Shown here piece after piece: positions 18,955 through 23,126 of a stretch of 24,457 bases of DNA (position 1 is the first letter of the stretch; each line of letters begins with the position of its first letter). The stretch is from a virus. Made by a program: the position numbers and the translations under genes. The stretch covers positions 1-24,457 of IMG/VR virus record IMGVR_UViG_3300020198_000098; one strand, given 5' to 3'. The notes under the pieces are model-generated. The model worked only from the letters and a program-made list of their open reading frames with translations, ran no database searches and was not told where the DNA came from.

Positions 18955-18962
18955 TATAAATA
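18955..18962 (+). promoter_or_regulatory. Late promoter octamer TATAAATA
   Basis: An exact late promoter 24 bases after nrdB, upstream of the NtcA-type box. It would let the riboswitch unit be transcribed late as well as from its sigma70 promoter. Confidence 0.55.
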
Positions 18963-18976
18963 AATGCAGATCATCC

Positions 18977-18992
18977 TGTAACAAATGTTACA
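18977..18992 (+). promoter_or_regulatory. NtcA-type binding site (GTA-N8-TAC)
   Basis: TGTAACA-AA-TGTTACA is a perfect inverted repeat of 7-base arms. It contains GTA-N8-TAC at 18978-18991, the consensus for the cyanobacterial nitrogen regulator NtcA. Its centre is about 50 bases before the predicted transcription start; classical NtcA activation uses about -41.5, so this sits roughly one helical turn further out. The match is seen; binding is inference. Confidence 0.6.
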
Positions 18993-18999
18993 AAACTAC

Positions 19000-19028
19000 T
19001 TGACTACATAATAGAGAGTAACTATACT
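19000..19028 (+). promoter_or_regulatory. Sigma70 promoter of the riboswitch unit
   Basis: TTGACT at 19000-19005, a 17-base spacer and TATACT at 19023-19028. The start near 19035 coincides with the first base of the riboswitch. CATAAT at 19007-19012 is a second possible -10 box. Confidence 0.7.
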
Positions 19029-19033
19029 CTAAT

Positions 19034-19090
19034 AACGTTCATCGGAGAAATCCGACGGAAGTAAGCCGACTCGGAACGGATCGTTCATCT
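19034..19090 (+). promoter_or_regulatory. Glutamine riboswitch (glnA / Downstream-peptide class)
   Basis: The RNA shows the hallmarks of the Breaker-lab glnA/Downstream-peptide aptamer. P1 is CGTTC (19036-19040) pairing with GAACG (19074-19078). A hairpin TCGGA-GAAA-TCCGA spans 19042-19055, and the conserved ACGGAAGTA core follows at 19055-19063. A short CCG/CGG helix lies at 19066-19074. Such RNAs bind L-glutamine and occur in cyanobacteria and their phages, where the Downstream-peptide form precedes a short ORF, exactly as here. CGTTCATC is repeated at 19082-19089, directly before the start codon, so GAACG can pair with either copy. No database search was run. Confidence 0.85.
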
Positions 19091-19249
19091 ATGGAAATCA
19101 TTCTCTGGACTTGCGTTGAATCTCAAAAGCTTATTGACAATGTTCGCACCTCAAAAGTGCCAAATAAGGTAAAAGCAGAGCTCATTCAAATTCATAAAGA
19201 ACACGCACCAAAGACCTGTAAATTTACCATAGACGCAAAAGCCGACTGA
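19091..19249 (+). CDS. Downstream-peptide protein (52 aa)
   Basis: The short gene expected after the riboswitch, starting MEIILWTCVESQKLIDNVRT one base after the repeated CGTTCATC. It encodes 52 aa, mostly helical with a basic centre (KVPNKVKAELIQIHKEH) and two Cys (C8 and C43). There is no Shine-Dalgarno within normal range; the closest purine stretch is GGA in the riboswitch 3' strand, so translation is probably controlled by RNA folding. The role is not established. By analogy with the cyanobacterial glutamine-synthetase inhibitor under the same riboswitch class, interference with host nitrogen metabolism is a reasonable hypothesis. Confidence 0.8.
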   Translation: MEIILWTCVESQKLIDNVRTSKVPNKVKAELIQIHKEHAPKTCKFTIDAKAD

Positions 19250-19288
19250 AGGAACGCTCTTTAACCTCAAAACCTAAGGAGAAACCTA

Positions 19289-19429
19289 ATGTCGAAAGTC
19301 GTATACCGTGGTGTCGAATATGATACCGAACAACGCCGTCAAGCACAGGCACAAACACAGCAACAACCTCAACAATACAATGAGACCTATCGTGGGGTCA
19401 AATTTGTAAAAGAGGGGACTAAGGGATGA
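19289..19429 (+). CDS. DUF4278-like YRG-repeat protein, N-terminal part (46 aa)
   Basis: Starts at ATG 19289 behind AAGGAG. It contains the repeats VYRGVEY and TYRGVKF, separated by a Gln-rich linker (QAQAQTQQQPQQYN). The YRGV.Y signature is that of a small cyanobacterial domain (DUF4278, as I recall). The frame stops at TGA 19427-19429, but the same frame stays open for 52 further codons with two more YRGV repeats, so the ORF is interrupted rather than terminated. It is the second gene of the riboswitch unit. The function is unknown. Confidence 0.7.
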   Translation: MSKVVYRGVEYDTEQRRQAQAQTQQQPQQYNETYRGVKFVKEGTKG

Positions 19430-21841: not shown

Positions 21842-21908
21842 GCAGAGGTCCACACTCTGCATAAGTCTCGACCCTCCCATGCCTCTCAACGATGCACAAA
21901 CAGGGAGG
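21842..21908 (+). other. Structured leader before the tRNAs
   Basis: Hairpin GCAGAG-GTCCACA-CTCTGC at 21842-21860 and a longer-range pair CCTCCC (21873-21878) with GGGAGG (21903-21908), followed by TTCCTTT. It may be a weak terminator or a processing signal. No gene is seen here. Confidence 0.4.
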
Positions 21909-21917
21909 TTCCTTTAT

Positions 21918-22965: not shown

Positions 22966-22987
22966 ACCATTGGAATACTCAAAATAT

Positions 22988-23069
22988 GGAGAATAGCACC
23001 GATGGTTGGTAAATCGTCTTGAAAACGATGCCAGGGTAACACCTGATAGTTCGATTCTATTATTCTCCG
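22988..23069 (+). tRNA. tRNA-Ser (anticodon TGA)
   Basis: Acceptor GGAGAAT/ATTCTCC, anticodon stem ATCGT/ACGAT, loop CTTGAAA (TGA at 23020-23022), a long class II variable arm (CCAGGGTAACACCTG), and T-arm GATAG-TTCGATT-CTATT. The D-arm is weak. CCA is not encoded. Confidence 0.9.
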
Positions 23070-23126
23070 TTACTATTAATATACATTTTAGATTTTATTA
23101 ATGTATGTTTTGAAATTCTCACAAAG

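Follow-up and report, generated by a model that had tools for sequence, protein, structure and literature searches.

A short gene apparently nested within the second of two tandem glutamine aptamers in T4-like cyanophages

The locus and its lineage

The DNA analysed here (hereafter, the window) is the 24,457-base IMG/VR virus record IMGVR_UViG_3300020198_000098, positions 1 to 24,457. Three observations place it among the T4-like cyanophages: the window encodes a RusA-like resolvase downstream of the leader described below; several relatives with a matching layout carry a ribonucleotide reductase small subunit directly upstream of the leader; and the related records belong to the Kyanoviridae. 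Relatives were gathered by DNA similarity and their leaders were compared side by side. Within the leader (Table 1), a T4-like late-promoter motif, an NtcA-type box and a sigma70-type promoter are followed by an intact glutamine aptamer (A), by a 52-aa open reading frame (ORF) framed by the two halves of what appears to be a second aptamer (B), and by a 46-aa ORF resembling DUF4278 proteins.

Table 1. Features of the leader and of the two short ORFs, in window coordinates.
Feature	Position	Strand	Basis and details
T4-like late-promoter motif TATAAATA	18955-18962	+	Sequence match; 6 in window against 2.06 expected
NtcA-type box GTA-N8-TAC	18978-18991	+	Sequence match; within perfect 16-base palindrome TGTAACAAATGTTACA
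Sigma70-type promoter TTGACT-N17-TATACT	19000-19028	+	Sequence match
Inverted repeat AGAGTA-ACTA-TACTCT	19015-19030	+	Straddles -10 box
Glutamine aptamer A	19036-19078	+	P1 formed by 19036-19040 with 19074-19078; intact and ORF-free in window
Hairpin GAACG-GAU-CGUUC	19074-19086	+	Joins aptamer A P1 3' strand to aptamer B P1 5' strand
Putative aptamer B, 5' half	19082-19094	+	CGUUCAUCUAUGG; P1 strand CGUUC 19082-19086; P2 5' arm UCUAUGG 19088-19094 (holds ORF AUG)
Nested ORF, 52 aa	19091-19249	+	ATG 19091-19093 in P2; TGA 19247-19249 in aptamer core; phrog_504-like
Putative aptamer B, 3' half	19227-19256	+	CCAUAGACGCAAAAGCCGACUGAAGGAACG; P2 3' arm CCAUAGA 19227-19233; core CGCAAAAGCCGACUGAAG; P1 strand GAACG 19252-19256
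Possible hairpin CUCUUUA/UAAGGAG	19257-19281	+	Predicted fold; covers DUF4278 Shine-Dalgarno 19276-19281
DUF4278-like (YRG-repeat) ORF, 46 aa	19289-19429	+	phrog_5049 E 7.7e-14; Pfam DUF4278 E 4.2e-4

The promoter region

The initial annotation had described an NtcA box, a sigma70 promoter and a glutamine riboswitch stacked ahead of the 52-aa ORF, just downstream of a T4-like motif; all of these elements, the ORF included, were recovered where it had put them, and comparison with related phages established that the stack of box, promoter and aptamer is conserved. On window statistics alone the evidence for the NtcA box (seven matches against 2.45 expected) and for the promoter (one against 0.54) is weak, and their significance derives instead from conservation in relatives. 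TTGNNN-N16-18-TANNNT is present in 102 of 121 unique leaders, with an N17 spacer in 88, and 57 of the 102 unique promoter-bearing leaders have a GTA-N8-TAC box at one fixed offset, its first base exactly 22 nt upstream of the -35 TTG, where shuffled sequence predicts 0.03 such cases. The TATAAATA motif is not kept at the same position in the leaders inspected.

As the promoter ends just before aptamer A, the transcript is predicted to start within a few bases of it, and the centre of the NtcA box lies about 50 nt upstream of that expected start. The usual centre of an NtcA box is -41.5, and the phage box thus sits about one helical turn further upstream, a displacement that the initial annotation had noticed and that proves to be conserved in its own right. 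A canonical NtcA-activated (class II) promoter, which lacks a -35 box and has its -10 box 20-24 nt downstream of the NtcA site, was considered and rejected on spacing: from the TAC of the NtcA box to the -10 box TATACT is 31 nt, the -35 box TTGACT is also present, and the geometry is the same in relatives. Given this unusual position, the sense of any NtcA action, be it activation or repression, is not readable from position. Sullivan et al. (2010; PMC3037559) catalogued GTA-N8-TAC boxes before cyanomyovirus genes, 1-16 per genome, and the present leader shares this feature; the fixed 22-nt offset to a -35 box before a glutamine riboswitch is not known to have been noted there. Since the stack is both real and conserved, it is still plausible that the phage senses host nitrogen at two levels, through NtcA and through a glutamine aptamer.

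The inverted repeat around the -10 box has arms that differ between relatives yet remain complementary (variants include GTGTTA/TAACAC, GGTATG/CATACC and GGGG/CCCC), with a mean perfect stem of 6.08 against 4.20 in shuffled sequence; it might serve as an operator, or form a hairpin when transcripts read through. Four further leaders (L035, L040, L043 and L098) carry the tandem without a sigma70 promoter; near aptamer A they show a stretch that is ATAAATA-like or otherwise AT-rich, which suggests late transcription in those phages.

Two tandem aptamers, the second split by an ORF

A covariance-model match to a glutamine aptamer was obtained as the initial annotation had anticipated: Rfam family RF01739 matches 19034-19082 with 35.4 bits (E 2.4e-4), just above its gathering score of 35 bits. 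RF01704 (glutamine-II, Downstream-peptide; cut-off 33 bits) gave no match in the window at E<=1 and was borderline in two relatives, at 33.1 and 33.0 bits.

The sequence flanking the 52-aa ORF contains the elements of a second aptamer: its P1 strands are present, its core matches that of compact aptamer B copies, and its P2 helix covaries and folds across the ORF. UCUAUGG, which holds the start codon, is perfectly complementary to CCAUAGA, so that P2 closes across the whole reading frame, and the UGA stop falls inside the aptamer core GACUGAAGG. Nine loci with a compact aptamer B share the 25-base core GACGCAAAAGCCGACTGAAGGAACG without a single difference. The split copy was not matched in the RF01739 scan of the window, as expected when some 130 extra bases interrupt the model; its unsplit homologues score 37.8 (L013), 35.4 (L012), 34.5 (L010), 33.5 (L005) and 33.3 bits (L004). 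The phages S-PM2, Bellamy, P-TIM68, AG-345-P14 and S-CREM1 have two compact tandem aptamers followed by a YRG-repeat (DUF4278-like) ORF. Judged from sequence comparison, then, the leader is a pair of tandem glutamine-I-type aptamers with the 52-aa gene nested in the P2 terminal loop of the second, and the earlier picture of a riboswitch lying ahead of that gene gives way to one of two aptamers with the ORF inside the latter.

The hairpin GAACG-GAU-CGUUC, which has a pair probability of 0.82-0.94 in the window fold, excludes both P1 helices. It can form in 112 of 112 loci scored, with a linker of 3-5 nt in 111, which is partly a by-product of P1 conservation.

Covariation and folding of P2

For filled aptamer B, all 61 unique arm sets among the matches listed form the first four P2 pairs and 60 form the fifth, the variable pairs alternating among C-G, A-U, U-A and U-G. 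P2 stems in B average 6.39, compared with 4.09 (sd 0.23) after shuffling of 3' arms from locus to locus, and with one representative per protein cluster (36 in all) none of 20000 shuffles matched the observed pairing. Folding at full length gave medians of 7.8 arm pairs in B and 7.1 in A, compared with 0.5 and 0.2 after arms were swapped. As shuffling between loci leaves some relatedness in place, the figures to be preferred are those from the swapped-arm folds and the representative set. Strict-register P2 pairing in A modules, with six representatives, was no better than in shuffles, and some helices have internal loops; P2 in A modules is supported by the folding comparison and by the complete set of arms.

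The start codon itself is commonly involved, pairing with the 3' arm at a probability above 0.5 in 57 of 88 B modules and 23 of 34 A modules among the matches listed. In the unliganded window fold P2 has a pair probability of 0.83-0.997 and the nested AUG is paired at more than 0.99; P2 pairing is likewise strong in the unliganded folds of most relatives.

Empty and filled aptamers among relatives

A core pattern scan returned at least 119 IMG/VR stretches which, together with named phages and the window, gave 134 classified loci among the matches listed. In these loci 5' half and core are separated by 14-36 nt or by 142-233 nt, and no intermediate spacing occurs. Aptamer A is empty and B filled in 51 (the window included), both are empty in 25, both are filled in 20, and A is filled and B empty in 14 of these matches; the remaining 24 are not fully typed, because the pattern did not pick up A or the contig stops short. 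In the named phage P-HM1 both aptamers are occupied. Again among the matches listed, each long-class module contains an ORF that begins with an ATG 9-13 nt after the first base of CGTTCA, in A and B alike, and that stops in the core or shortly before it; the one ORF ending just past the core is that of S-SRM01, in which the core stop is altered and the frame reads through. A homologous or analogous ORF occupies each of the 88 long-class B modules listed.

Nested ORFs range in size over ~48-73 aa, and their frames are open from fixed start to fixed stop although their lengths differ. The usual ending of B ORFs is D-A-K-A-D-stop, a consequence of the frame in which the core is read, and many ORFs in A finish with G-R-K-stop. 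Among the A ORFs, two types match phrog_6471 and a third (MTKALLLLAW...RC) has no family match, and one B ORF belongs to phrog_13397. In one locus (L116) an A-type protein is located in aptamer B, which indicates that nested content moves between sites. Homology between A- and B-type proteins was considered on the basis of an hhalign probability of 94 and set aside as a possibility only, the value falling to 40 once L116 was removed; a hydrophobic start and two cysteines are common to the two types.

The protein encoded in the window matches a single family, phrog_504, of unknown function; it has no Pfam family and no solved structure by sequence. Its AlphaFold model (pLDDT 76) consists of two short helices, for which Foldseek found no meaningful match. 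Two cysteines are kept in 23 of 23 aligned B proteins, and their DA..D ending is dictated by the aptamer core. Purifying selection is evident in both positions: across pairs of equal-length ORFs with 70-95% identity, aptamer-shared ends excluded, median dN/dS is 0.13 in B and in A, and every pair lies below 1. In 201 host-family genomes there was one weak match to the nested protein (E 0.0014), inside a 233-aa frame, and we therefore treat the protein as phage-specific. Exact core matches in genome contigs number four, in two Prochlorococcus assemblies and in two contigs binned to unrelated phyla, and are most simply explained as phage sequence.

The downstream DUF4278-like gene

Among the matches listed, the YRG ORF starts within 62 nt of the tandem in 127 of 129 loci. 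Its Pfam DUF4278 match is below the Pfam cut-off in the window ORF and above it in P-SSM7. Cyanobacterial glutamine riboswitches of both types are ON switches ahead of DUF4278 genes, and DUF4278 forms the N-terminus of the glutamine synthetase inactivating factor IF17 (PMC6316151). The initial annotation had suggested that the 52-aa peptide acts on host glutamine synthesis; given the DUF4278/IF17 homology and the host riboswitch precedent, that idea belongs to the ORF at 19289-19429, which it fits better. From its sequence and position this ORF, rather than the 52-aa ORF, is likely the canonical riboswitch target.

Folding revealed no expression platform for the DUF4278 gene, and forcing both P1 helices barely altered pairing of its Shine-Dalgarno sequence. 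The possible CUCUUUA/UAAGGAG hairpin is found, on inspection, in close freshwater and estuarine relatives and not in DSL-LC02 or marine leaders.

Proposed mechanism and rival readings

The geometry of aptamer B suggests how the two genes might be controlled together. A ribosome at the nested AUG would unwind P2 and then, in the course of translating and stopping, the core, leaving aptamer B unable to fold; with P2 opened at the start and the core covered at the stop, a ribosome on the nested ORF would be incompatible with the folded aptamer. If so, binding of glutamine should turn the nested gene off, and translation of that gene should dampen the response downstream. With glutamine bound, aptamers A and B would both fold, the AUG would be buried and the nested gene off, and the DUF4278 gene would be turned on by glutamine, like the host glutamine ON switch. 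The two proteins would thus be made reciprocally, the nested one at low glutamine and the DUF4278 protein at high glutamine; the GAACG-GAU-CGUUC hairpin would couple the two aptamers, and at the level of transcription the NtcA box would bring in 2-oxoglutarate as a further input. That nested translation and glutamine-bound aptamer B exclude one another, with reciprocal output relative to the DUF4278 gene, is a reading to which we give slightly better than even chances. Because the predicted fold closes P2 even with no ligand, the target of glutamine may be P1 and the core and not the AUG; alternatively, the AUG may be accessible only while the RNA is being transcribed.

Three other readings have to be weighed against this one. 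Riboswitch stems often differ in the length of their terminal loops, and compact modules themselves vary by 14-36 nt from 5' half to core, so it could be that an ORF simply settled in the insertion-tolerant P2 loop, where overlaps save bases and translation proceeds independently of the aptamer. Such genome economy seems improbable when the AUG is held at 9-13 nt in every nested module, both A and B, and when the P2 pairs that contain the AUG covary, since insertion into a loop needs no AUG in the helix. A purely kinetic account, which we think rather unlikely, leaves the nested AUG open until RNA polymerase has completed the 3' arm ~140-200 nt later, after which P2 closes regardless of glutamine; nested protein would then appear in a burst from new transcripts and glutamine would matter for the downstream gene only. 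In its favour are the near-certain P2 of the unliganded window fold, the strength of P2 in most relatives, and crystal and probing work in which the P2-equivalent stem of glutamine-II formed without ligand (PMC6698751), yet alone it leaves unexplained both the stop codon in the ligand-binding core and the keeping of an aptamer around the gene. Finally, aptamer A could be the only aptamer, serving as leader of the 52-aa ORF with the sequence beyond that ORF unrelated. It is the sole Rfam glutamine-aptamer match in the window and ends just before the ATG, and short ORFs are known after Downstream-peptide RNAs (Weinberg et al.; PMC2864571). The comparative data already contradict this last reading, which we consider highly improbable: the post-ORF sequence is the exact 25-base core of compact aptamer B in nine other loci, the P2 arm next to that core pairs with the arm holding the start codon, and in many phages the tandem occurs free of ORFs.

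Extending the reading in which nested translation and ligand binding are mutually exclusive, the aptamers might act more generally as sockets for genes, with small protein genes of several families occupying, leaving and swapping between the P2 loops of the two tandem copies, and each aptamer controlling the AUG inside it through its own ligand-gated helix as well as the downstream gene, with reciprocal output. We put this broader scheme forward tentatively, at somewhat less than even odds.

Relation to known systems

Both the tandem arrangement of glnA RNAs and the short ORFs that follow Downstream-peptide RNAs have been on record since 2010 (PMC2864571). The phage elements are like the host glutamine-I (glnA, RF01739) and glutamine-II (RF01704) riboswitches in aptamer sequence, in P1 and P2, in tandem arrangement and in having DUF4278 downstream (PMC2864571, PMC6316151, PMC6698751). 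The host gene PMM1846 brings DUF4278, a glutamine riboswitch and an NtcA motif together, with the motif reported upstream as in the phage leader (PMC6316151). The difference is one of placement: in host glutamine riboswitches the gene follows the aptamer, whereas the phages appear to have a second, unrelated gene within the aptamer, in either or both copies.

Partial parallels exist elsewhere. The mgtL ORF encodes a short regulatory leader peptide, and its translation and the folding of the leader RNA influence each other. It is one of the leader ORFs that overlap ion or metabolite sensors, found in the Salmonella mgtA leader (PMC6460261), and the likeness lies in an interaction between short-ORF translation and leader folding, as proposed here. 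In contrast to that regulatory peptide, the phage nested ORFs are conserved genes of ~48-73 aa, from families that move between sites, and are closed by an aptamer helix. Group I introns are ribozymes, and homing endonucleases are mobility proteins. Homing endonuclease genes in such introns are an example of ORFs in the loops of structured RNAs (PMC3984707), similar in that a protein gene occupies a peripheral loop and leaves the RNA intact. They differ in that the host RNA is a ribozyme and the gene one of mobility; the phage RNA would be a metabolite sensor, with start and stop codons that are part of its conserved helix and core.

A literature search found no description of genes inside glutamine aptamers; Klahn et al. 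2018 and Ames and Breaker 2011 lay outside its scope. Riboswitches have been described as preceding the gene that they control, and here a gene appears to lie inside the sensor, in many T4-like cyanophages (at least 100 relatives). Should translation and ligand binding prove exclusive, this would be a new layout for gene control in which one small aptamer serves two proteins with opposite outputs. The DUF4278 protein, for its part, marks a definite point at which phages may influence the nitrogen metabolism of the host.

Annotation and neighbouring RNAs

These observations revise existing annotation, in that some 'downstream peptides' assigned to cyanophage glutamine aptamers are nested genes and the Rfam model misses the split aptamer. 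Several nested ORFs are annotated in named phages, and at least one is not: that of aptamer B in P-SSM2 (L011, ~1219-1368), which reads MDILLATILTCEEAKG...WDAEVD and stops at TAA rather than TGA, the core being altered and the stop retained.

Other RNAs were noted in the course of the survey. In the window, an abiF RNA (RF03085, 53.8 bits) lies at 21873-21909, immediately before a tRNA cluster, the abiF sRNA family being also reported from cyanophage S-CREM1; a tRNA-Ser (TGA) at 22987-23070 was called by ARAGORN and is absent from the Rfam listing. In P-RSM6 and P-SSM4, manA RNA motifs (L014 1638-1823 and L009 715-900) lie ~1 kb or less from the glutamine tandem.
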